This document shows, piece after piece, positions 1-37,097 of a DNA stretch of 64,000 nt. Every line of letters starts with the position of its first letter. Positions within the stretch are counted from its first letter, which is position 1. The stretch is from positions 1 to 64,000 of IMG/VR virus record IMGVR_UViG_3300036770_001423. One strand, 5' to 3'. A program made the position numbers and the translations under genes. This DNA is from a virus. The notes below the pieces were generated by a model. It made no database searches. It had not been told where the DNA came from and was given only the letters and a program-made list of their open reading frames with translations.

Positions 1-1140
1 TTTGAAACTTATAAGAAACTGACAGATAAAATCTCTACGATTGACATTCACCAAACGATGATTGATGTTTGTATTGACAAAGAGACTCTTGAGTATAGTC
101 GTGTAGCAAGTCGTTTAGAGTTTGCTACCATTCGTAAGAACATGAAATATGTCTTTGGTGTCGATGATCGAGATAGCTTGAAAGATATTCTGCAAGCGTA
201 TGAAGATTTCGGTGTATGGGACAGTGATTACATTCCCCCGTATAATCCAGTCTGGGAAGATTGGTATAACGAGATTAAACAAACACGTTTAGAATACTGG
301 CAGGTAAAGCAGTTCACAGATAAGTATGCTTGTAAGATTAACGATGTAGTGATTGAAACACCTCACTTAGCATACTTCGGCATCTCTGTTGCTTTGTTTG
401 GTGATACACAAAAAGCTTTTGATTTCATGAAAGCTTTAGTGAAAGGTAAGATTAATCTGCCAACACCAGCACTTAACGGTTTACGTAATGGTGATTGGGA
501 CACGATTAGTTGCTGTGTAATTAGTGCTGGGGACTCTACTGAGTCTATTGGTGTAGCTAATCACATCGCTTATCGGATGACAGCGAAGAAAGCAGGTATC
601 GGCATTGAGTACACATTACGCACTAAACACTCTCCAGTGAAAGGTGGTCGTGTAGCCCACTTAGGATTGAGTCCTATTTACAAAGCATTAAATGGTGAAG
701 TGAAGGCGTTGACACAAATCACTCGCGGTGGTAACGCTACAGTGACAGTGCAATGTATCAATCCAGAAGTGATGGATGTGTTCAACTGGAAATCTCAGTT
801 GACTGACTTCGAAACACGTATTGACAAGCTGGATTATTCGTTCGCTTTCAATGACGCATTCTTCAATGCTGTAGTGACTGATACAGATTGGTATATGTTT
901 AGTCTGTCTGATGCGCCAAAACTGTATGATTTGTTCTATACGGCAGATGCGGATACCTACAACAAAGCTGTAGAGAAGTTGCTGAAGGTTGATACGAAGC
1001 ACAAGAAAGTTAAAGCTCGTGAGATGTTAAAAGCTTTCCTTACAATCAGACAAGAGACAGGGCGTTTCTATGCAATCAATGTGAGCAGAGCAAATAAACA
1101 TACTCCGTTCTTAGACACAATTAGACAAAGTAATCTGTGT
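1..1140 (+). CDS. nrdA: Ribonucleotide reductase large subunit, exon 1 (5' end cut by window)
   Basis: This is the upstream exon of the class Ia ribonucleoside-diphosphate reductase alpha chain, which reduces NDPs to dNDPs with NrdB. The frame is open from base 1, so the true start lies left of the window. Visible family features are the ISCCVIS segment with the redox cysteine, the AGIGIEY stretch, and the terminal RQSNLC, which ends on the radical-bearing cysteine (E. coli C439). After that codon the reading meets a stop in a group I intron. The exon ends with T at 1140 and the protein resumes at 1439 in phase 0. A tool that ignores introns would call this a gene ending at 1143. Confidence 0.95.
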
Positions 1141-1438
1141 TAATCTTGGCACAGAGTAAACCCTTTGAAAACGGTGAACATCTCTTTGAGACAATACCGT
1201 GGGAAGATTGGTTGAATGTTCCCTCCGCTTGACGGAGTTCTACTGGATACCAATAACCTGTAACGACTATCGAAACACTGTGAACGTGACAGAATGGAGT
1301 AGAGTAGCTACAAGCGTAGCGAAGCGGAGGGGTAGGTTACGTGAAAGAACCTACATGATATAGTCTGAGCTATATGGCAACATATAGATGCGGGTAAAGC
1401 CGCTGGCAGAGATTAGCGAACTCTGCTGAACACAACTG
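1141..1438 (+). ncRNA. Group I intron in nrdA, without ORF
   Basis: This 298-nt self-splicing intron separates two parts of nrdA that together match the continuous QSNLC-(M/L)EI-LPTK region of NrdA. The 5' exon ends in T and the intron ends in G (1438), as required by the U.G pair and omega-G of group I introns. Internal landmarks are a P3/P4-like stretch near 1168-1200 and a P7-like GATATAGTCTGAG near 1357, followed by a P8-like stem. There is no internal ORF, so mobility would need an endonuclease in trans. Confidence 0.88.
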
Positions 1439-2400: not shown

Positions 2401-3477
2401 ATGTTAGAAGTATTCAACGTAAATAATAAAGGTTATGTCACAGGTAAATACCCGTTGTTCTTAGGCGAGAAGTTAGGCTTGTATGATTCAGTGAACGTAG
2501 CTTATCCCGACATCGAAGAACTATATCAGCAGCAGTTTGGTCAGCGCTGGAGTGAGTTTGAATACGATCTCACTCAAGATAAAATGGATATGCTCACTCT
2601 ACCTAAAGAAACCACTGACTTAATGGTTGAGACAATCATGTGGCAATATACGGCAGATAGTATTGCAGCTAAGTCTTTGGCTGAATTGCTGTTACCTTAT
2701 GTCACAAATAGTGAGCTTGAAGCTATGGTGACTATCCAAAGTTTCTTTGAGATTATTCACAGTAGAACATACGCTCACATCGTTAAGCAGACAATCCCTA
2801 ACGCTAAGGATTTGTTGGAGAAGACCTACAGCAATGTAGAAGTGATTAAGCGCTCTAAAGTGATTGGAGAAGCTTTTGGTGCCTTGTATCGCTTAAAAGA
2901 GGACAGTCCGCGTAAAGAGAAGATTCGTGCATTGCTTAGAGTGATGTTTGCTTTGATGGCTTTTGAGGGTGTAAGCTTCATGTCATCGTTTGCTGTGACA
3001 TTCGCTATTGCGGAGACAGGGGTGTTTCAGGGTATTGCTGGTTTGGTTGGATTGATATGTTTTGACGAACTACTCCATGCTAAGATGGATTATACTGTGC
3101 TGAAGAATTTGTTGAAAGACCCTGAATGGTATGCAGAGTTCTTAGCTATTAAACCTGAGATTAGCGCAATCATCAACGCTGTAGTTGAGCAGGAACATAA
3201 ATGGACAGAACACCTATTCAACGAAGGTCGTAGAGTGGTTGGTTTAAGTCCTGTATTACTTCGTGAGTTTGTAATGTATATGGCAACTCCGTTGTATAAG
3301 AGCTTTGATCTCGTAGCGGAACATCCGTTTATTGAGAAGAACCCATTACCATACATGAACAAGTATTTAAAGTCTGGTGTGATTCAAGTGGCTGCTCAAG
3401 AAGTACAGTTAAGTGATTACAATGTGGGTAACATTGTTGACGATACAGATAACCTAGATTTGAGTTTTGATGTCTGA
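2401..3477 (+). CDS. nrdB: Ribonucleotide reductase small subunit (class Ia beta)
   Basis: This 358-aa protein houses the di-iron tyrosyl radical used by NrdA. Metal and radical residues are visible: FEIIHSRTY supplies E117, H120 and Y124, matching E115, H118 and Y122 of E. coli NrdB, and a second cluster FDELLH lies near residue 222. The length is normal for the family. The ATG is preceded by GGAGG at 2392. It follows nrdA after a terminator and ends before another strong terminator, so nrdAB forms its own module. Confidence 0.96.
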   Translation: MLEVFNVNNKGYVTGKYPLFLGEKLGLYDSVNVAYPDIEELYQQQFGQRWSEFEYDLTQDKMDMLTLPKETTDLMVETIMWQYTADSIAAKSLAELLLPYVTNSELEAMVTIQSFFEIIHSRTYAHIVKQTIPNAKDLLEKTYSNVEVIKRSKVIGEAFGALYRLKEDSPRKEKIRALLRVMFALMAFEGVSFMSSFAVTFAIAETGVFQGIAGLVGLICFDELLHAKMDYTVLKNLLKDPEWYAEFLAIKPEISAIINAVVEQEHKWTEHLFNEGRRVVGLSPVLLREFVMYMATPLYKSFDLVAEHPFIEKNPLPYMNKYLKSGVIQVAAQEVQLSDYNVGNIVDDTDNLDLSFDV

Positions 3478-3494
3478 TAGAATTATCAGAACCT

Positions 3495-3518
3495 AGCCCC
3501 GCTCATGCGGGGCTTTTT
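3495..3518 (+). terminator. Rho-independent terminator after nrdB
   Basis: An 8-bp GC-rich stem (AGCCCCGC / GCGGGGCT) with a TCAT loop runs into a T tract. Confidence 0.85.
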
Positions 3519-3535
3519 ATTGCCTAAAATAAATG

Positions 3536-3566
3536 TTGACATTAGATGCGCTTGTGTGTGTATTCT
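3536..3566 (+). promoter_or_regulatory. Sigma-70-type promoter for the 3.6-4.8 kb gene group
   Basis: TTGACA at 3536-3541 and TATTCT at 3561-3566, with a 19-bp spacer that is slightly long. It lies between the nrdB terminator and the ribosome-binding site of the next gene. Confidence 0.5.
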
Positions 3567-3596
3567 TATCTCAACAAACAAATGAAGGAGAAAATT

Positions 3597-3947
3597 ATGA
3601 CTGATTTTACCATGTTAGATGTTATTAAACAGATTTTAGTTGAAGGTGGTGATGTATCTGTAGTTTTAGTGGAAGACGAATTATATTTTAATATGAATTC
3701 TGGAACTAAAGCTCATTTATACGTGTCCATTAATATTGTTGACAATACGATAAGATATACCACACGATACGATAATGGACACATGTACAACATACACTCG
3801 ATTGCTGACGCAATCGAAGAAATAACTTATGTGATTCGTTTCGAGTGTATGTGCGGTAGAGATTTTGTGAGTGATTACTGGATAAAGAAATTTATTGAAT
3901 ACGGTTATGCTGAAGAAGTCAAACGTACAGAGATTGTTTTCAAATAG
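3597..3947 (+). CDS. Hypothetical protein, 116 aa
   Basis: Not recognised. The start chosen is the ATG at 3597, with AGGAG six bases upstream (3586-3590). A longer frame from 3546 would begin inside the promoter region and is rejected. The protein is acidic and soluble with no clear motif. It is the first gene of a four-gene group running to the terminator at 4842. Confidence 0.7.
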   Translation: MTDFTMLDVIKQILVEGGDVSVVLVEDELYFNMNSGTKAHLYVSINIVDNTIRYTTRYDNGHMYNIHSIADAIEEITYVIRFECMCGRDFVSDYWIKKFIEYGYAEEVKRTEIVFK

Positions 3948-3956
3948 GAGAATACC

Positions 3957-4172
3957 ATGACTAAACAACAAATCTTAGCACAAGCTTGGGACTTATACCA
4001 CGAACATAGCCAGCTTATTACATTAGGTGCTTGTATTCGCACTGTATGCAGTCAGATGGCTACAAAAGAACATAAATGTTTAAGCACTCTTGACGGTAAT
4101 CCAGCTTTGTGTTATTTTAATGAACATTACGACGATAAGTTTGAGCAGCAATATTTATTGGAGGGAATTTAA
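3957..4172 (+). CDS. Hypothetical protein, 71 aa
   Basis: Not recognised. It has an AGGAG site ten bases upstream and starts MTKQQILAQAWDLYHEH. It has three cysteines and a helical N-terminus. The spacing to its neighbours is only a few bases, so it is probably co-transcribed with them. Confidence 0.65.
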   Translation: MTKQQILAQAWDLYHEHSQLITLGACIRTVCSQMATKEHKCLSTLDGNPALCYFNEHYDDKFEQQYLLEGI

Positions 4173-5892: not shown

Positions 5893-8232
5893 TTATTTAA
5901 TGAAAAATGTTTTAACTTTATTACCGTCTATGAAGTAGACGCGAGATATATCGACAGGGTAAAACACGGATTGTGCCATGCCCAACGTTTTATAACCAAA
6001 CGTATAAGTGGTCAAACCCATATTTAATGAGCTACCTGTGCTTATAGATAAGGTTTTACCGGAAGTGATAATATTTCGTTTTATTAATGTACCATCAAAC
6101 GGTGTTGCTGTCCCAGAGTCTAAAGTCAACAACTTACTTACCACATTGACAGAGTATTTGATTACGTCAGCGTCAAAACCTACTGCCGTACCAGTAGATA
6201 AGGTTAACTGTTTACCAGATAAATTGACAGATAGTTTTGAAGCACCAATATCAAACCCTCCAGAGAAACTAGAAGATTTACCTGCAACAGAAATTGATCC
6301 TCTGTTTAAACCAGAATCAAAAGATACTGAAGTTCCTGAGTCAAGTGTCAGCGTCTTACCTGATGACATTACGCCAGTTTTAACTATCGGACTATCCCAA
6401 CCAACACTAAGGTTTAAAGTTTTCTGAGACACACTTAGGTTTGATTTAGTCAGTGGACTGTCAAATGGAGAGCTGTAGAAGCTCGACACCATGCCGTTGT
6501 AAACAGCTGTCGCAGCCAATTGAGCTTCTGTGTCAGTTTCATAGTGTATCTTCTGATACAGTGGCCAAATCTGTGGAACTACATCAGACGCATTTGCATT
6601 AGATGCCGCTATATCATTAATCCACTGACGCACGTTTGCGTAATCTGTCAGGTTTAATCCCGATATAGCCACCAACATGCTATTCTTGCCGGTTAGCGTT
6701 TTTAGCTGGTCAATAACGGCGTTATAGCGTGTTTTAAAATCTGTTTCGCTTGTCGCTGCACCAGCGTCGCTTTCACCAATCCAGCTACAAACACCTTCCA
6801 GTCCGTCAGATGCTGCCGCAGTGATGTAGTTCAGCATTCGAGTATTAAGTGTTTGCCCGCTTTGCCACTGTGAAAGCGTGGTGCTACCTGCCGCAACACC
6901 GATAAACGCCACAGGGCATCCCAGATACGCTGTAAGGCTGTTTGCCAGCAGCGGGAATAAAGAGCCGCTTGCGGTGTCTGTATCGAATGGATCTGCGCCC
7001 TGCTGCCACAGGTTGTTTGTCACTGTGTATTTGTGGAAAAATCCAGCAGTGCCGGTGTACGCCTGCGGATTATTGGCGCGGCCCGAAAAGTTGGATTGCC
7101 CCCAAAATAAGAATTTAGCACCGATAGCGATATTGTCCGCGCTGTCTGTCACTGATGTAGCGTTGGAATAACGCACTTCTAGGGTGCCGTTACCAGATGG
7201 CAGCCCGGTTAGTGTGCCGCTAAATGTTCCGCCAGAGGGAGATGCGGTTATCGTGGTCCACGCGCCGCCGTTCCATCTTGCTTCGATGCCAGTCGGGACT
7301 GTGCCACCTGAGTACGTGCCGGTAATTGCAATGCTGCCGGTGTTAGTACCTGCGTTACGCTGGAACATCTGCCAGTCGTAGGGCGATGTAATAGCAATAA
7401 TGTCAGCAACAGAAAGATTTAAACCACGATCAGCGCCGCCAGCTGCGGAGTTATCCAGCACACCCCCAGCGGCTGCCGTGTAGACTTGGCCGGCGTAGTT
7501 GGTAAACGCTGCTGTCGTTACACCAGTTAAAGCATTTGCACCTGTGGCGGATGTATCACCAGACGATAAGTAACTAACCGTCGAAGTGGTTGAAGCACCA
7601 AAGAAGTTTATTAAACCATTACCATAACAGACCACGTTATCAATAACCGCGCCGGAGATGTCTTTGCGCATGCCGCCACGGCTGGCCGTGTTTGTGGTGT
7701 TGTTTCCGACTACAACGCACTTGCGAACAGTGATACCAGCAAAGCCGTTGTTAATGCCCCATGTTGTTGCGCCTGTTACCACACAGTTTTCGACTAAAGT
7801 AGTTGCCGTGGCTCTGCCGTGGCTAATACCTGTCGTGCCACCACGGACCAAGCAGCGCATTACTGTGGTGTTTGTGTCCTCGAATGCACCTACCCTTAAA
7901 CAGACGCTGGCAGCGGTTGTGACTAACTCCAAATCTTCAAGCGTCATAGGCGCAACAGGACGCCAATACAGTGCGCTTGTGGTTGTGCTGGCTATTTTGG
8001 CGTGTGGCGCTGTCGGGTTGGTTAAATCAAGTTTAACAGCTGTTGCGGCTCGAACCTTTACAGAGCCATCAAAGGTTCCGGTCACTTCGCCCCAAGCGTA
8101 ATCTGCTGCATCTATAAGCTCAGCAATATACACATCACCAGCACCGGCAAAGGTATTACGAGCAGACCACCAAGCGGCAAGCGTTGTAAAATCCGCACCG
8201 GATGCGCCTATCGTCTTGACTACATCAGCCAT
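5893..8232 (-). CDS. Tailspike with beta-helix and SGNH/sialate O-acetylesterase-like domain, 779 aa
   Basis: Probable receptor-modifying tail protein. Residues ~50-280 form a right-handed parallel beta-helix-like region. Residues ~370-585 form a carbohydrate-esterase domain of the SASA/SGNH type, with GQSN (378-381, nucleophile S380), WIGESD (484-489) and a late KIHYETD holding H563. Residues ~595-740 contain four or five tandem copies of a ~35-residue unit with the motif LTLDSGT..FD. Such esterases usually deacetylate O-antigen or capsule. Its start overlaps the next gene's stop (TAATG). The 6.7-8.1 kb part looks richer in GC than its surroundings, consistent with domain acquisition. Confidence 0.8.
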   Translation of the reverse strand: MADVVKTIGASGADFTTLAAWWSARNTFAGAGDVYIAELIDAADYAWGEVTGTFDGSVKVRAATAVKLDLTNPTAPHAKIASTTTSALYWRPVAPMTLEDLELVTTAASVCLRVGAFEDTNTTVMRCLVRGGTTGISHGRATATTLVENCVVTGATTWGINNGFAGITVRKCVVVGNNTTNTASRGGMRKDISGAVIDNVVCYGNGLINFFGASTTSTVSYLSSGDTSATGANALTGVTTAAFTNYAGQVYTAAAGGVLDNSAAGGADRGLNLSVADIIAITSPYDWQMFQRNAGTNTGSIAITGTYSGGTVPTGIEARWNGGAWTTITASPSGGTFSGTLTGLPSGNGTLEVRYSNATSVTDSADNIAIGAKFLFWGQSNFSGRANNPQAYTGTAGFFHKYTVTNNLWQQGADPFDTDTASGSLFPLLANSLTAYLGCPVAFIGVAAGSTTLSQWQSGQTLNTRMLNYITAAASDGLEGVCSWIGESDAGAATSETDFKTRYNAVIDQLKTLTGKNSMLVAISGLNLTDYANVRQWINDIAASNANASDVVPQIWPLYQKIHYETDTEAQLAATAVYNGMVSSFYSSPFDSPLTKSNLSVSQKTLNLSVGWDSPIVKTGVMSSGKTLTLDSGTSVSFDSGLNRGSISVAGKSSSFSGGFDIGASKLSVNLSGKQLTLSTGTAVGFDADVIKYSVNVVSKLLTLDSGTATPFDGTLIKRNIITSGKTLSISTGSSLNMGLTTYTFGYKTLGMAQSVFYPVDISRVYFIDGNKVKTFFIK

Positions 8233-20793: not shown

Positions 20794-21823
20794 CGTTTTG
20801 TTCAGGAGCGGTCGTTACTCACTCCCCGCTTTATTCAAGCTGCTGCATGTTTCCATGCAGACCAGACTATATCATCATCTCTATAAGATGCTTATCATTT
20901 CGAGTTCACTTGAACCCTACTCCCTTATGGGATAGTCGTTGAGCACAATACCAATTCGTTATATAATTCTTTATGTGTTTTACCTGAGGTGATATTTGCT
21001 ACATGGTGCCTGTTTATCTTACCACCAAATTCAGCAATTATTTCCTTAGTTGTTTTTCCAGAGATAAACATTAAAAGTACTTTTCTGACATCATCTTCAG
21101 TCAAATATTTTCTTGGTAAGTTAAACTCATAATCATTAGATATGTGAGACCAAGACTGTTTACTCTTAATTGAATATACTGTTGATTTATTTAAACCGGT
21201 AATTTTGCAAATTTCCATAATCTTCTTACCTTCACACAGAAGACTACATACTTGCCTTACCGTCTCATCACTAATGGTTGCCCTATATCCCAACCTACCA
21301 ATCAACATATTACCAAACTCAATACCGTGTTGGTAATTCCCTTTAGGGGATACCCACTCAAGATTCTCAATAGAATTGTTACGTCTATTTGAATCTTTAT
21401 GGTTAACTTGAGTAAGTGTTGTTGGATCTGTATTTTGGATAAACACAATAGCTAACGCTCTGTGTACATAACAACCTTTAGTTTTCTTTTCAACAGGGCA
21501 CCATACCTTGATTCTCAAATACCCGTCTCTGTCTGTGTATGGTGTTAATTTATTCAATGTGTAGCTGGAATAACAATTCCCGTCAACGTCTATAGACAAG
21601 AATTCATAATCTTTTACTTTATATAACATGTTGCCTCCATTTAGGAGGATTGGCATCTTCGCTGCGGATTGTCCAATCCTGACAAATTTTTACTATACTT
21701 GCAATAGTTAATTGCAACCCCACACTATATTACTATGTATGGTTAGTATTGTCAAGCTCTAAGGAGTTTCCCGCATTAGATAAGTTTTCTGTATACATTG
21801 CTGTATACAGGGGCTTTCTATAA
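20794..21823 (-). ncRNA. Group I intron in the tape measure gene
   Basis: This 1030-nt intron encodes an HNH endonuclease. The 5' exon ends in T (21824) and the intron ends in G (20794); removal restores PGGVQIFAK in phase. Core signatures on the minus strand are AATGCGGGAAACTCC (P4/P5-like, near 21770) and GATATAGTCTGG near 20865, followed by a P8-type TCTGCATGGAAACATGCAG hairpin. The latter is almost identical to the one in terminase intron 2, so the two are related. Confidence 0.88.
20925..21629 (-). CDS. Intron-encoded HNH homing endonuclease, 234 aa
   Basis: Contains VNHKDSNRRNNSIENLEWVS, the HNH core of NUMOD4/HNH-type homing enzymes, then two helix-turn-helix-like DNA-binding segments (KIMEICKITGLNKSTVYSIK and TKEIIAEFGGKINRHHVANI) of the NUMOD type. 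It would cut intronless tape-measure alleles. The start is the ATG of MLYKVKDYEF at 21629, with GGAGG seven bases upstream. Wholly inside the intron. Confidence 0.88.
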   Translation of the reverse strand: MLYKVKDYEFLSIDVDGNCYSSYTLNKLTPYTDRDGYLRIKVWCPVEKKTKGCYVHRALAIVFIQNTDPTTLTQVNHKDSNRRNNSIENLEWVSPKGNYQHGIEFGNMLIGRLGYRATISDETVRQVCSLLCEGKKIMEICKITGLNKSTVYSIKSKQSWSHISNDYEFNLPRKYLTEDDVRKVLLMFISGKTTKEIIAEFGGKINRHHVANITSGKTHKELYNELVLCSTTIP

Positions 21824-23188
21824 ACCCGGCATTGATTCTGCGAATTGCAAACGCAACTCCTCACTGGAGATGCGGGTTTTACTCATCATCTGCTGAATAG
21901 CATTGAATGCTAACTTCATTTTCTCTTGTGATAAGCCTAACACTGTACCAAGCTCAGACATATTAGTGAATAGTTCTTCAATCTGAGTATTGGTTAATTT
22001 ATCTTTAGCGGCAAATTTAAACTTGATGTATTGATCCGCAATATCTTTTACACTCAAACCTAAACGTCTTGACAAATCAATCAAGAACTGCATTTGCTGC
22101 TTAGCGTCTGACGTATTACCTGTTGCGGCAAGCATAGCAGAGTTTAAAGCTTCAAATGATTGACCTGTTTGGTTGATGGCACTTGTACCAGCAAACAAAG
22201 CATACAGACTCGCGTACTCTCGTACCATGTTGCGTGTAGAGTCCTGTAAACTGCTCATTGCAGCAGCAGCACCCATACTATGTCTACGCTGTTTCTCAAG
22301 CTCATGGTTCATCCTAGACAGTTCTTTTGTCACTGTTCTAAGCTGATCTATGTTACCTGAAGCAATAGCTGCATCAATCTTAGCACCGCCAAGGGGACGA
22401 TAACGTTCTACATCTCTTGCTGCACGAACAAACGCATCAGCACCTTTCTGTGTAGTTTGTTTCTGAGCGCCTTGAAGTAATGAAGCTTGTTGCTGAGATG
22501 TGTAGTTCTGAAAACCACCACCCTTCTTAATGGCATTGAATGTATTGTTTGTAGCAGTACCTGTTGGACCAGTCATCAGTGTGGCTACACGAACATTAGA
22601 TTCTTTCAAATCTCTGTTCAGTTTAATTACACTAGCACGAATCGCTTTAATCTTTTCTAATGAACCCCCACGAGCCGCTTGTCTTGCTGACAATAAAGCC
22701 TGCAATGCTTGTTGTCTTCCTTCAGGACCACTAGACTTTAAATCACGGAAAGCTTGTAAATTAGTAAGAGTACCCAACGACCTACGTTTACGTAAGCGCT
22801 CATTGGCAATGCCGAGAGCAGACTGGTCGGACTGCATCTTACGATAGTAATTACCCATAGCTTTGAGCTGAGGGTTTACTTCAGGATTGATTAATGCACG
22901 AACAGCTTGTTGACGTTTAGCGGATTCAATAAAACTTTTATCAGCAATCTTTTTACTTTCTTTAGCTGACTTTCTTTCAATATCTTCTTTCTTCTTAGCT
23001 GTTGTTTCAGCAACCTTCACAGCGTTATCGGATATTTGCTTCTCAGCTTTTAATCCATTCTTAACACGTTTAGCGTCTACTCCAACAGCTAACTTTTCTA
23101 ACGATTTGTGTAAATCTTGAATTTGAGATTTAATCTTTGATGTATCAAACCCCAAGCTGACAAGAAAATCTTCAATTGGGCTGGACAT
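21824..23188 (-). CDS. Tape measure protein, exon 1
   Basis: The N-terminal 455 residues of the tail tape measure. A charged coiled-coil start (TTAKKKEDIERKSAKESKK) leads into the conserved domain with TGNTSDAKQQMQFLIDLSRR, QMMSKTRISSEELRLQFAE and SMPG at the splice junction. The frame continues three codons into the intron and stops at 21818. It overlaps the tail chaperone frame by one base. Confidence 0.88.
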
Positions 23189-31448: not shown

Positions 31449-32354
31449 CTATGTGCTGTTCTCATTTTGCTGGGACTTGACCCACTCAGTGGCTTGCCTA
31501 AAAGCTTCTTCTTCACCAAGCCTATACACATTGAATGTTTTGCGTTTTTTATTTCCGCACATCATTTTGTACGCAACGTAGTGACCTTTTTTATTTAAAT
31601 GGACATTCATTGCCTCTGTTTTTGTGTACCTTGCTGGTTTTGTTTTATCATACTTCCCAAATCGTACAAGGTAATGGTATATAAAATCTTGAAGTTCGGA
31701 GTCTTGTGTTGGGTCATACCCTTCAGAAAAGCGTCTGAATAGTGCCTTATAATTAGTTGACCTGTTCAAATTCAGTGCATTACTTATACGATAATGTTTA
31801 TACCCTTTCTTATAAAGATGGTATATATCGTTGGCGAGGGACAACACATCCTTATTAGAGTAGGGAGAGTTGATTAGGCTGAAAGATTTCATCACCTCCG
31901 ACCTAGCAACCCTCTCTGTTTCTGGAACATCCCTATTCTTCAGCTTTTCAACCATATGTGATGTGTCTACAGGTATTCCTCTTCTCATTGCAGATACTAC
32001 TGATTTTTGCTTGTCGGTTTGTGGCCTACCTAGCCTACCATTCAGTCCACCACCGACACAAATATTCCATCCAATTAGAGGAGCTGGTCTTAGTTTATTC
32101 TCTAACCATCTGGCGTAATCAAGATCACATTCACACAGGACAACTAACTCAATGTCGTCCCCATATTTAACCATTGCTCTATGAACTATGCCAATAGAAC
32201 TGGCTTTTTGCTTTTCGCCATTTTTCAGTTTCTTAGCAACTCGAAGATGCGTTGAGTACCTTCGCTTTACACTACCAGATGTTATACCAACATAACCTTC
32301 TGTATTTATATCAGTATGGTCTTTGTGTTTTATCCAGTATACAAAAGAACTCAT
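31449..32354 (-). CDS. Free-standing GIY-YIG homing endonuclease, 301 aa
   Basis: The N-terminus has the GIY-YIG core (VYWIKH then GYVGITSGSVKRRYSTH, with E at LENKLRP), a linker with helix-turn-helix-like segments, and a C-terminal AP2-type DNA-binding segment (GHYVAYKMMCGNKKRKTF). It sits between portal and protease, its ATG overlapping the portal stop and its stop touching the protease ATG. So it entered without breaking either gene. Confidence 0.82.
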   Translation of the reverse strand: MSSFVYWIKHKDHTDINTEGYVGITSGSVKRRYSTHLRVAKKLKNGEKQKASSIGIVHRAMVKYGDDIELVVLCECDLDYARWLENKLRPAPLIGWNICVGGGLNGRLGRPQTDKQKSVVSAMRRGIPVDTSHMVEKLKNRDVPETERVARSEVMKSFSLINSPYSNKDVLSLANDIYHLYKKGYKHYRISNALNLNRSTNYKALFRRFSEGYDPTQDSELQDFIYHYLVRFGKYDKTKPARYTKTEAMNVHLNKKGHYVAYKMMCGNKKRKTFNVYRLGEEEAFRQATEWVKSQQNENST

Positions 32355-33871
32355 CCTTTGTTTTCCATATTCAAACTGCTGTTATTCTTACCAGCAGCAC
32401 CAGTGCCGTTACCCATACCTTCGACCATGCCGTCACCACTGCGAGTAGTCATGTCACTAAGCTTCTCAATGATTTCATCTTCATCAAGCTTCTCAATCTC
32501 TGTAGTGTCATAACCACACTTACGCCACAGTTGAACAAGCATTGCTTTGTCTCGTGGGAATAAGCCTGTAGCGCCTAAGCGTTGACCAGCTTTAGAAGCT
32601 TCTTCAGCATCAGCTTCATCCAGCTCACCAAACGTCATCACTGGCATATCATCTTCTTCAAGCTTAAGCTCATTAATGTCTGCAAGAGACTTAACAAACT
32701 CACGCTCAAATACTGTTTTGATATACATCAGCATACGTTCCATGTAGAAAGCATGGACACTGCGACTACTATCTGATAGACTATGTGAACCTGTATCGCC
32801 TTGACCAACCAGAAGGAAGGAAGCGCCTAATACGTTAAGAATGTCTTTCTTACGAGCTTCAATTAGTTCAGAGGTTTTATAGGCTTTACTACCACCGTCA
32901 ACACCTTTCAGTTCAACATCATAAACGTATTTACCGTTACCTGTTTCACCGTGTGTATCAGAGCCTAAGAGGATATATGTTTGATCGCCAGCATGAATAG
33001 CAGCAGCATTCTTTTGTAATGCTTTTAATGTGGCAGCTTCAAGACTATTTTCATCTTCAGCAGCTTTATTGATATGATCATTCGGAACACGTAATACAAG
33101 GACACCACCCAAGTCCTTGCTCACCCCAACAACCTCATAGCTTGTAATCATTTCAAGCTCTTTCCAAGATTTGAAGCAGTCGTATAGATCTGATTTACCT
33201 TGGGGGTTGTTGCCTGTACTATTCCAACTGAACAACATAAACTTTTCTCTACGAACAAATTTATCTGTTAAGTTTTGTACAGTGAAAGGGTTAATATTGC
33301 TTTGTCCAATGACTGTAGCTGGCATCCATTGATATAAACCAACTAAGTCTCGCTTCAATACAGCATCATCAAACACCCACTCACGAACACTCTTTTGAGC
33401 GCGAGGAGCAAGCTTTGCATATTTGTATTTATATTTACCAGACCATTTAATACTATCATTCTTTGCGAAGACTTTCTCAAGCCAAGCAAATCCGTATTTA
33501 CGGAATGTGATAATATTTGTGATGGCATCATACCAACTGTTACCGACAAAGTTCTTAATGTTCCAGTTTAAGAAGGCAGCAAAGTCTTTTGACTCTTGAC
33601 TTCCCGATACACCTGCGATAAACTTTGTAGCAAGTAGGGACTTGGTGAGGAATACTTCTCCAGCAGTTAATCCTTGACTAACAGCAGAAGTAGAAGCCAT
33701 CTTATCATATGTGGTGAGGCTATGAGGAAACTGCAATTCTTTCTTAGCAGATTCTTCGATGTAGCCACCGATGGCTTTTAGATATGGATTGCCGATCTCT
33801 CCTAAGCGAAGACGACTGTCTGAGCTAGAGGGATTAGATTCAGCTTTCTCAATTTGAATTGTTTCTGACAT
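32351..33871 (-). CDS. Portal protein (DUF935/Mu gp29-like), 506 aa
   Basis: Forms the dodecameric DNA gate. Features: KMASTSAVSQGLTAGEVFLT, NIKNFVGNSWYDAITNIITF and RKYGFAWLEKVF, a segment typical of DUF935 portals, then RREKFMLFSWNSTGNNPQGK and SDLYDCFKSWKELEM. The acidic C-terminus ends in a glycine/asparagine tail. It is directly downstream of the large terminase. Confidence 0.85.
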   Translation of the reverse strand: MSETIQIEKAESNPSSSDSRLRLGEIGNPYLKAIGGYIEESAKKELQFPHSLTTYDKMASTSAVSQGLTAGEVFLTKSLLATKFIAGVSGSQESKDFAAFLNWNIKNFVGNSWYDAITNIITFRKYGFAWLEKVFAKNDSIKWSGKYKYKYAKLAPRAQKSVREWVFDDAVLKRDLVGLYQWMPATVIGQSNINPFTVQNLTDKFVRREKFMLFSWNSTGNNPQGKSDLYDCFKSWKELEMITSYEVVGVSKDLGGVLVLRVPNDHINKAAEDENSLEAATLKALQKNAAAIHAGDQTYILLGSDTHGETGNGKYVYDVELKGVDGGSKAYKTSELIEARKKDILNVLGASFLLVGQGDTGSHSLSDSSRSVHAFYMERMLMYIKTVFEREFVKSLADINELKLEEDDMPVMTFGELDEADAEEASKAGQRLGATGLFPRDKAMLVQLWRKCGYDTTEIEKLDEDEIIEKLSDMTTRSGDGMVEGMGNGTGAAGKNNSSLNMENKG

Positions 33872-33883
33872 TATCCCCTCAGA

Positions 33884-34987
33884 TTATGAATTAAGGTCAT
33901 ATTGCGCTTTGATTGTGGGATCGTTGAGAGCGGTTAGTTTTGGGACTGTGTAGGTTTTGATTGTATTCAATGCGTTTAGGGCTGAGGCTGCGCAGTCGGC
34001 TACGTCATCCTTGTACCGCTTTGTGCTACGCTCCCCTGAAAACTGTTCTAGACTTTGTAGATAAAATTCCAGTGTCGCAGCATCAAATGTGCTTGCTACA
34101 ATCTTGACTAGACCATTCTCACAAGCAGAAGCAAAAGGAGCAAACTTTGTCATCTTAGATTTGTTACTCGGCATAGGATCTGCTTTAACAACATAACCTT
34201 TACCTATTAATTTCTTAGAAGACTCAATGAACTCATACTTACCTGCCGCAGAAGGATCTTTTGGAAAGATTATTGTAACATCAGTGCCGTCATGTGCTGC
34301 TTGTAGCTCTATGAGGTTATCTCGCTCACCTACAGTCTTTCTAACTACTCCGAGAACTTTACTGTCTGGATCTTTAAAACTTGGGTGAAAGTCGCCAAAG
34401 ATATAGTAATAACCCTCTTTATCTTTAGCCATACCTATCTGTGCTGTGTAGTCTGGACTTGGTTCTTTGTCTGAAGGCGCAGTTCCTGCTTTATCATAAG
34501 CCCTAACGCATTTTGCACCAAGAGGAATCTTGTCAGCAATAGCACACCACTTTCTATCGAAGTACAAGCTATTAGAAGGGCGTACTTTCCAGTTACCATC
34601 CAACAATCTCGCTCTGTCGATAGGGTTCAAACCTTCCAACCATGCTAAATAATCAGGGTTCTGTTCTAGCATCTTAGGGTTGTCCCTAATTGTGCTACCG
34701 ATAAAACTGAAACTGATTGGTTTTACGTTATCACCATATGTAGCTTTTAATTCTTCTGGCGTATCTGCCCAGAAGTATTGACCGCCTTGTAAAATGAACC
34801 AGCGTATTACACCAGCCCTTTCTTCGATAGGGAAACCTTCGTCATCTAACCACCAAGAAATCATCTCTGCTATCTTGTGGTCGGGATCAGGGTTGCAACT
34901 GATCACCATTCGTGAAGGGTATTTGGACTCGGAACGCATCCGAGACATCAGATATTCTATTTGTGACCAATCGAATTGCGTACCTTC
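33884..34987 (-). CDS. terL: Terminase large subunit, exon 3
   Basis: C-terminal 367 residues. It begins EGTQFDWSQIEYLMSRMRSE, so the Walker B glutamate (FIAFD-E) is the first codon. VISCNPDP is the coupling motif III region. The nuclease domain carries VRAYDKAGTAP (first acidic residue), DGTDVTIIFPKD and KYKDDVADCAA (RYKDDVADC). The TTG at 34999 used by an intron-blind call lies within the intron. Confidence 0.92.
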   Translation of the reverse strand, partial: EGTQFDWSQIEYLMSRMRSESKYPSRMVISCNPDPDHKIAEMISWWLDDEGFPIEERAGVIRWFILQGGQYFWADTPEELKATYGDNVKPISFSFIGSTIRDNPKMLEQNPDYLAWLEGLNPIDRARLLDGNWKVRPSNSLYFDRKWCAIADKIPLGAKCVRAYDKAGTAPSDKEPSPDYTAQIGMAKDKEGYYYIFGDFHPSFKDPDSKVLGVVRKTVGERDNLIELQAAHDGTDVTIIFPKDPSAAGKYEFIESSKKLIGKGYVVKADPMPSNKSKMTKFAPFASACENGLVKIVASTFDAATLEFYLQSLEQFSGERSTKRYKDDVADCAASALNALNTIKTYTVPKLTALNDPTIKAQYDLNS

Positions 34988-35237
34988 CGAAGTGTTCAAT
35001 AAGGTTCGTTAATCCTTACCAGCAGCACTACCTGCTTCTGCATGTCGCCATGCAGACCTGACTATATCATCACCCCATTAGGGTGTCTCCCGTTTCCACT
35101 CACTTGAGTGTACGCCTTTCGGCTAGTCGATGAACGTTCTCCGTTAGGAGCTTCGCTGCTGATTGTCTCTGTGAGAGTTCCCAGCAATTAGAGAGATTAT
35201 TCGACACATATTACTACGTGAAGCGACTATTTTACAA
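34988..35237 (-). ncRNA. Group I intron 2 of terL (at Walker B)
   Basis: 250-nt intron without ORF. The 5' exon ends GCGTTCGAT and the intron ends in G (34988). Joining gives FIAFDEGTQF. The core is visible on the minus strand: AATTGCTGGGAACTCTC (P4-P6) and GATATAGTCAGG (P7) followed by TCTGCATGGCGACATGCAG (P8), almost the same as in the tape-measure intron. Confidence 0.88.
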
Positions 35238-35537
35238 ATCGAACGCAATGAATGTATACTGTAAGCCTTGGTGATTGTACTTGTCTTTTTCTGTCTCCAT
35301 GTGAGACCATTTCATTTTAAAACCAGTAGGAAACTTAGCTTCTAATGAATGCTCTGACATACGAGGACGGAGTTCTGTGGGTAGCTGCATATACATATTA
35401 CGTGCAGTATCAAATACGCCACCAAGACCTTTGATTTGAACTGTTGTTCTGCGGAATACAATTGCGTTTGCTTTTGGGTCATCTACATAAAGCAAAGGGA
35501 GCATTTGTAATAGGAAACTTTTGCCGGAACCGGCTGC
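35238..35537 (-). CDS. terL: Terminase large subunit, exon 2
   Basis: This 100-codon middle exon runs from AAGSGKSFLLQMLPLLYVDD (rest of Walker A) through VFRRTTVQIKGLGGVFDTAR to QYTFIAFD, the Walker B strand lacking only its glutamate. Group I introns border both sides. Confidence 0.92.
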
Positions 35538-35779
35538 CAAATATTATGTAGTCGCTACACTACTCTGCCTTTTCAAGCAGGATCGGGTCATATCTTCATC
35601 CCAGAGGGAGTCTACCGTTTCGGATAATCAATCGCTTATTACCCTACGCCCTGACAAGGGCTGACCTCCACACACGCCATTACGCTTGGCTCGGTATTAG
35701 CATAGAGCGTAGCCCCTTAGCTTTCACCGAATTAGATAGATTCTTAGATACACATTACTGTGTTCTGTGGCGCAAGTTC
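35538..35779 (-). ncRNA. Group I intron 1 of terL (at Walker A)
   Basis: 242-nt intron without ORF. The 5' exon ends ATGGGTGGT and the intron ends in G (35538). Joining gives LIMGG-AAGSGKS. P3/P4-like CTAATTCGGTGAAAGC pairs with AATACCGAG, and a P7-like GAAGATATGACCC is visible on the minus strand. The core differs from the other three introns. Confidence 0.85.
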
Positions 35780-35890
35780 ACCACCCATGATTAAAATTTG
35801 AGCCTTACAATCAACAATCATTTGTTGTTTTTTAGATGTAGGCCCAAAAGGTAATCTTATCTCGCGGGGTTGTTTTTGTTTAGTTGTCAT
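35780..35890 (-). CDS. terL: Terminase large subunit, exon 1
   Basis: 37 codons from the ATG (GAGGAG four bases upstream) to LIMGG, the start of Walker A. It contains the adenine-binding-type lead-in EIRLPFGPTSKKQQ. It is too short for ORF scans. With exons 2 and 3 it gives a 504-aa terminase, the normal size. The motor packages DNA into the prohead. Confidence 0.9.
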
Positions 35891-35945: not shown

Positions 35946-37097
35946 CTAATCTGGCGTAATATACTTTAACAATATGTCTAATACAAGACTGAAGTCTTTA
36001 CGGTGGAATGTCTCTGTATAACCAGAACCCATTTCTTGTTTTGTAATTATACCTCTTTCGATACCAGAAGATATAATCTCACTCTCAAGTTTGCGTATAA
36101 CGTACCCATCAGGGTTCTCAAGATAGTATATTACAGATAAGGGGTATTTACATTTCTGTTGTATCTGCTTTAATCTTTTATCTAAATTATTCGTTATACC
36201 AAATTTCAGCACATCGTCAGTAACTTTCAATAAATAAAAAGTACCTCCCATAGTGCTTCTATAACCAACCCTTTGATTCGAGCATCTAGGGCAACCAGCG
36301 GCATAAAGATGACTGTTAGGTGCTTGAGAAAACACACCGTGATCTCTGCATATGATGTCTATCTTAGTATGTTGATTTTTGTAATCAACTAATGAATAGT
36401 CATATTTATCACCATGCACTTTCTTAGCTAATGATATGTATTCTTCTGTTGTGAACTTAAACATCTCTGCTTTAGCTAGTGAAGCACACTTAGTACAACC
36501 AATTGTAGTTAAATGGTGATCAGCCCTTTGAGTGACTACGCCGTGTAACTTACATTCGTATGTAATATACTTACTCTTACCAACATACTCAGTAATAGAG
36601 TAGTCATATTTATCCCCATGAACTTGTTTTGCTTTTTCTACATATTGTTCTTTACTAAATACTCTACTTTTAGAGTTATTGACAGTAGCACAAGATTTGC
36701 AACCAACTTTGCCTGCTGTATGTCCTGACAGTTCTTGTCTAAATACTCCGTGGTCAGGGCAAATAATATCTACAATATCTTTAACTTTGACATTATCGGG
36801 TATAAGACTATAATCATATTTACCGTTATGGGCGCATGTTGCTTTATCAATAAAGTACTGCCTAGGTTTTCTGGTAGCTTCTGCGATCCTTTCTTTGGCG
36901 CAGAGCTTACACCCATGTCTAGCGGATGTGTGACTGTTTGGGGTCACTTCAAATACAAAGTCGTGCTTAATACAACGAACTTTAACTTTATTACAGGCTT
37001 TAGTGTAAACAGACAAAGAATAATCATACTTATCTCCGTGAACACTTCTAGCTTTAATGATAAACGTTTCTAAATCTTCTATTTCGTGCTTTGCCAA
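35946..37097 (-). CDS. Homing endonuclease: four zinc-binding repeats plus GIY-YIG-like domain, 383 aa
   Basis: Four ~60-residue repeats each carry HGDKYDYS (or a variant), a C..HG or C..H motif and a closing GC..C pair. This is the DUF723-type DNA-binding repeat. Residues ~290-383 form a compact GIY-YIG-type nuclease (GGTFYLLKVTDDVLKFGITN, then RLKQIQQKCKYP and the catalytic E in ESEII). The start is a TTG at 37097, preceded by AAGG. Free-standing just upstream of terL, it may mobilise a terL intron in trans. Confidence 0.78.
   Translation of the reverse strand: MAKHEIEDLETFIIKARSVHGDKYDYSLSVYTKACNKVKVRCIKHDFVFEVTPNSHTSARHGCKLCAKERIAEATRKPRQYFIDKATCAHNGKYDYSLIPDNVKVKDIVDIICPDHGVFRQELSGHTAGKVGCKSCATVNNSKSRVFSKEQYVEKAKQVHGDKYDYSITEYVGKSKYITYECKLHGVVTQRADHHLTTIGCTKCASLAKAEMFKFTTEEYISLAKKVHGDKYDYSLVDYKNQHTKIDIICRDHGVFSQAPNSHLYAAGCPRCSNQRVGYRSTMGGTFYLLKVTDDVLKFGITNNLDKRLKQIQQKCKYPLSVIYYLENPDGYVIRKLESEIISSGIERGIITKQEMGSGYTETFHRKDFSLVLDILLKYITPD

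Follow-up and report, generated by a model that had tools for sequence, protein, structure and literature searches.

In the phage considered here the large terminase gene, terL, is interrupted within both of its ATPase motifs, and the questions are whether one functional TerL may nonetheless be expected from it, what the interruptions are, and how they came to lie there. The source is a linear IMG/VR virus record of 94,296 bp from an aquatic phage, and the window, i.e. the whole stretch of DNA that was analysed, comprises its bases 1-64000. We consider it very likely that the locus holds a single functional terL with two spliced, ORF-less group I introns, whose removal would rejoin the Walker A and Walker B codons.

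The joined TerL and its junctions

Joining the three terL exons (Table 1) gives 504 residues without an internal stop, containing LIMGGAAGSGKS and FIAFDEGTQF, and both Walker motifs are whole in the product (LIMGG^AAGSGKS and FIAFD^EGTQF, ^ marking the junctions). Pfam finds Terminase_6N and Terminase_6C in it (PF03237, E 3.6e-24; PF17289, E 3.4e-7), and the ATPase and RNaseH-like nuclease domains are thereby both present in the one joined protein, as they should be in a large terminase; a sequence match to a solved structure was not found. The restored reading frame and 504-residue length given in a preliminary description of this DNA are thus borne out, as is its statement that T is the last base of each 5' exon and G that of each intron. 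The junctions proposed there, 35780/35537 and 35238/34987, are also the top-scoring ones among 79 (intron 1) and 53 (intron 2) frame-restoring T^..G^ choices within 45 nt, when scored against an intronless homologue. An intact terL elsewhere, which would have spoken against the description, was not found in the record, though this may be incomplete.

Table 1. Features of the terL locus, in window coordinates
Feature	Position	Strand	Description
Endonuclease ORF	35946..37097	-	free-standing, GIY-YIG-type homing endonuclease, 383 aa, Pfam MUG113 E 7.7e-6
terL exon 1	35780..35890	-	37 codons, last residues LIMGG
Intron 1	35538..35779	-	242 nt, ORF-less, Walker A, GG^AAGSGKS
Intron 1, proposed guide	35767..35775	-	GCCAC with exon GUGGU (P1), UUGC with 3' exon GCAG (P10)
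Intron 1, P3	35735..35740	-	5' strand UCUAUC, partner GGUAGA at 35616-35611; paired in 8 homologues
Intron 1, P7	35662..35666	-	5' strand GGUCA, partner UGACC at 35590-35586; paired in 8/8, compensatory changes
terL exon 2	35238..35537	-	AAGSGKS ... FIAFD
Intron 2	34988..35237	-	250 nt, ORF-less, Walker B, FD^EGTQF
terL exon 3	33884..34987	-	EGTQF ... stop

The exon and intron layout, the group I core of both introns and the homologous introns of relatives are read from the sequence, and by analogy we strongly infer that the introns are removed from the mRNA by self-splicing during infection, since terL introns that are homologous or lie at the same site undergo splicing in ICP1, as demonstrated by RNA-seq, RT-PCR and Sanger sequencing (PMC10448857), and in CB7, where RT-PCR found the intron spliced and where it is listed as common to phiTE (PMC7344957). 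The gene could instead be broken, with the insertions unspliced, the fragments serving as separate proteins, or the contig defective or misassembled. Such a reading may draw on the fact that splicing is here predicted from the sequence, that some phage introns fail to self-splice in vitro (PMC11878797) and that NrdA of phage Aeh1 functions as separate peptides (described in PMC7344957), but in-frame stops come after both 5' exons, and the unspliced gene would have both Walker motifs severed. Furthermore, compensatory base pairs are kept in the intron cores, and the protein encoded by exons 1 and 2 is identical in the window and in L006-L008, three contigs from other metagenomes, which makes a broken gene highly improbable.

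Group I character of the two introns

The covariance-model check that had been proposed for the introns is clearly positive for intron 2, which scores 83.1 bits against Rfam Intron_gpI (RF00028; curated cut-off 50), whereas intron 1 stays below the cut-off at 38.5 bits, with an E-value of 1.5e-7 when 3.4 kb were searched and of 2.8e-6 for the window as a whole. The low score is however no argument against intron 1, since that search, at E 0.01, fails to detect even the spliced terL intron of ICP1. Judging from the sequences, intron 1 is not a chance match, as it is found again at this junction in L006-L008 and the Barba phages of Rheinheimera, and as its core covaries. In a set of eight Walker A introns (window, L008, Barba, ICP1, L053, L068, L092 and L095) P3 and P7 are paired throughout and P4 nearly so, covariation is strong in P3, P4, P7 and P9, two-sided changes are found in 15 of the 21 core pairs, and 95.8% of the cells in the core helices are paired, against at most 38.7% with slid partners. 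By its pairing and compensatory changes in P3 and P7, intron 1 accordingly qualifies as a group I intron, and its longest open frame is 27 codons. The proposed P1 has a U.G splice pair with P10 directly adjoining, although P1 and P10 by themselves are weak, with a coincidence rate of about 3% by shuffling; for intron 2 the assignment of P1 is ambiguous between two rival candidates. Folding energy was dropped as support for intron 1, the minimum free energy having a z of -0.91. Taken together, the Rfam matches, the covariation and the homologous introns uphold the original proposal that a group I intron lies at Walker A and another at Walker B.

The TerL segments of L006-L008 are 92-94% identical to that of the window and intron 1 is present in all three at the same junction, but only L008 has both window introns at the same sites; in L006 and L007 intron 2 is replaced by a different, 290-nt intron 20 nt upstream, at LQ^YTFIAFDE, the joined sequence there reading YTFIAFDE. 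Intron 2 lies on another intron branch than intron 1, nearest to the B1 intron of L006 and the introns of L079 (with weak support), and probably represents a separate arrival at the site occupied in phiTE (Certrevirus) by an HNH intron. The phiTE intron is found at the same FD^EGTQF junction, but is 969 nt long and carries an HNH endonuclease, whereas intron 2 has no ORF. Intron 1 is matched in 112 Rheinheimera Barba phage (Barbavirus) records at the same GG^AAG junction; in Barba21A the counterpart is 74% identical and the Walker B site is empty. In L006 an additional group I intron (6811-7031) cuts the portal gene, which is whole in the window (32351-33871).

Insertion sites across the TerL family

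Group I introns in terL are already known from LL-H, rV5, Moonbeam, SIOphi, Bastillevirinae, CB7 and ICP1, and the present phage adds another case. Its terL resembles those of LL-H, rV5, Moonbeam and SIOphi (PMC3606486, PMC4299906, PMC11878797) in being cut by at least one such intron, and differs from rV5 and Moonbeam in that the latter bear endonucleases inside their terL introns. That two introns in one terL are uncommon, as first supposed, does not hold: terL of rV5 is in three segments (PMC3606486), two introns interrupt that of Moonbeam (PMC4299906), the number is two or three in some Bastillevirinae (PMC11878797), SIOphi likewise falls in the range of two to four, and we find three in Vibrio phage VnaP and four in Vibrio phage R16F. 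Nor is the combination of one intron per ATPase motif as unusual as suggested, since L137 (GGA^AG and D^E), L092 (GGA^AG and DEG^T) and L079 (GGAAG^S and SQ^LEY) each pair a Walker A intron with a second one that lies in or just beyond Walker B. In literature outside subscription papers, available in part, we found no placement of terL introns on Walker motifs; the motifs are not mentioned in the accessible portions of the rV5, Moonbeam and Bastillevirinae accounts (PMC3606486, PMC4299906, PMC11878797), nor did a text search retrieve them from the ICP1 paper (PMC10448857).

When TerL relatives among IMG/VR and GenBank phages were mapped for splits, most inserts being checked with Rfam, at least 16 insertion positions emerged. 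In Walker A these are after GG, GGA, GGAA and GGAAG; elsewhere they are KWxH^ME, HQG^LQY, LQ^Y, FD^E, DEG^T, SQ^LEY, SCNPD^P, AT^I.DNP, YD^NP, LHG^NW, DPG^AAGK and KDD^V. Walker A, Walker B and the SCNPD motif are among the stretches concerned, as are motifs of the nuclease domain, and the number of positions shows the extent to which selfish introns use this universal phage gene. The 16 positions fall in conserved stretches, with a mean divergence score of 0.634 as compared with 0.494 for all boundaries; none of 100,000 random draws reached 0.634, and treatment as eight site clusters gives p <=0.0003. This pattern repeats the preference for conserved host sites described for group I introns in general by Swithers et al. 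(PMC2814812). The earlier emphasis on insertion into the most conserved codons of the packaging motor is better understood as this known preference.

Splicing at both ATPase motifs might alternatively serve regulation, as a switch by which packaging is delayed or tuned, since both catalytic motifs need splicing and active TerL would hence be limited. We find this very unlikely, however, because, as expected of selfish elements, intron position differs among near-identical phages (window and L008 as opposed to L006 and L007) and intronless relatives are common, and because the conserved-site preference needs no regulation (PMC2814812); nothing in the present sequence shows a regulatory role. 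The ORF-less terL introns are best regarded as selfish elements, the Walker A one probably being mobilised in trans.

Introns also account for the annotation of many terL genes as truncated or without Walker A. In Barba phages terL (L005 2938-4707) is annotated as short hypothetical ORFs and a terminase without this motif, the intron having escaped recognition, and a text search of the two Barba phage papers found no mention of an intron; marker-gene surveys are therefore biased. Likewise, terL of R16F (L038 2658-5148) and VnaP (L033 1458-3713) is annotated as five and four 'terminase' CDSs, respectively, because of their four and three introns. Other kinds of insertion occur in Walker A as well: VEcB appears to have an intein there, as read from the translation, Justusliebigvirus terL (L037 350-2434, and L029) has an apparent intein at GGAAG^SGKS, the place of the L079 intron, and in L010 (about 2500-3998) the motif is cut at GGAAGS^GKT by about 1.5 kb containing a LAGLIDADG-like ORF, recognised by eye, and a Pfam-supported GIY-YIG endonuclease.

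Proposed mobility of the Walker A intron

The endonuclease ORF upstream of terL, which the preliminary description passes over, ends 55 nt before the terL ATG and about 165 nt before the Walker A intron site, and an equivalent or related ORF adjoins terL in L006-L008, VnaP, R16F and ICP1. A free-standing endonuclease gene beside an ORF-less intron is the layout of a collaborative-homing locus, as in T3/T7-like phages and cyanophage S-PM2 (PMC3984707), although other host genes are involved there and the endonuclease target has been shown to be the intron site, whereas here it is predicted. Vibrio phage ICP1 offers a close parallel, with an ORF-less terL intron and a free-standing GIY-YIG-type gene, the T5orf172 endonuclease TcgB (PMC10448857), abutting the N-terminal exon. 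We map the ICP1 intron to Walker A, at GGA^AGGGKS, and assign it to the same lineage as intron 1. In ICP1 terL has a single intron, placed one codon downstream of the site used here and proven to be spliced (PMC10448857), while in the present phage Walker B holds a second intron and splicing is predicted from the sequence. For the ICP1 layout Barth et al. invoked collaborative homing, with endonuclease turnover as an alternative (PMC10448857).

An endonuclease ORF abuts terL in 7 of the 9 groups with an ORF-less Walker A intron and in 5 of the 39 without (Fisher p 0.0003, and 0.002 to 0.02 when nearer relatives are compared), but the counts are over dereplicated terL groups that are phylogenetically related, and the p values are indicative only for that reason. 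The upstream endonucleases of the associated groups comprise several GIY-YIG types and NUMOD4-HNH. A Walker A intron occurs without an adjacent endonuclease in Barba and L079, the upstream gene of Barba lying outside the Pfam scan, and L039, L070, L054, L066 and L009 have the endonuclease without the intron, the ORFs of L039 and L070 having been called by our own HMM and not by Pfam. With such exceptions on either side, any collaboration is less than strict. On this comparison of loci we lean slightly towards spread of the Walker A intron by collaborative homing: the GIY-YIG endonuclease encoded just upstream would cut terL copies that lack the intron close to the codons of the P-loop, after which repair would copy the intron and the adjoining endonuclease gene together.

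The introns may however splice while the endonuclease is unrelated to their mobility, being a later, independent arrival beside vertically inherited introns that lost their own endonucleases; this corresponds to the turnover alternative of Barth et al. (PMC10448857). It agrees with the lack of an adjacent endonuclease in Barba, with the existence of Walker A insertions having internal endonucleases (L010) and with the HNH inside the phiTE D^E intron, but the association of Walker A introns with abutting ORFs from several nuclease families speaks against it, and we regard it as a serious possibility that falls somewhat short of probable. The window and the ICP1-like loci constitute a natural series for testing how ORF-less introns and free-standing endonucleases cooperate.

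The Walker A introns furthermore occupy neighbouring codons in different phages. The site is GG^AAG in this phage and Barba, GGA^AG in ICP1, L053, L068, L092, L134 and L137, and GGAA^G in VnaP and R16F, with L095 at a different P-loop codon. Intron 1 and those of Barba, ICP1, L053, L068, L092 and L095 form one clade (support 81/93, with an open fork), which the VnaP and R16F introns join weakly. Apart from a few cases, a guide pairs best with its own exon at the junction called for it, L008 having a second pairing that ties, and the guide is GCCAC in the GG^AAG type and mostly GGU(N)CCAC in the GGA^AG type. We tentatively suggest that a single lineage changed its position within GG-A-A-G of the P-loop by steps of whole codons, and a shift by guide retuning is the simplest reading of the guides. 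In such sliding the guide would be retuned to its own exon and the U.G splice pair would move by one codon, leaving the protein unchanged since the codons passed encode repeated alanines, and neighbouring endonucleases of several families would keep re-targeting the P-loop spot. Repeated independent insertion of related introns is a possible alternative, and a literature search found no group I intron sliding of this kind. The window and the ICP1-like loci likewise form a natural series for asking whether group I introns can move by codon steps.

Other probable introns in the window

A group I match (1131-1387, plus strand) lies between two ORFs for the large subunit of ribonucleotide reductase (58-1143 and 1439-2356), which probably means that nrdA, too, is split by an intron. 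On the minus strand, group I matches at 21565-21833 and 20843-21088, flanking an HNH endonuclease ORF (20925-21656), come after a tape-measure ORF (21818-23188), and the tape measure gene (20843-23188) looks to be intron-split, as in ICP1.
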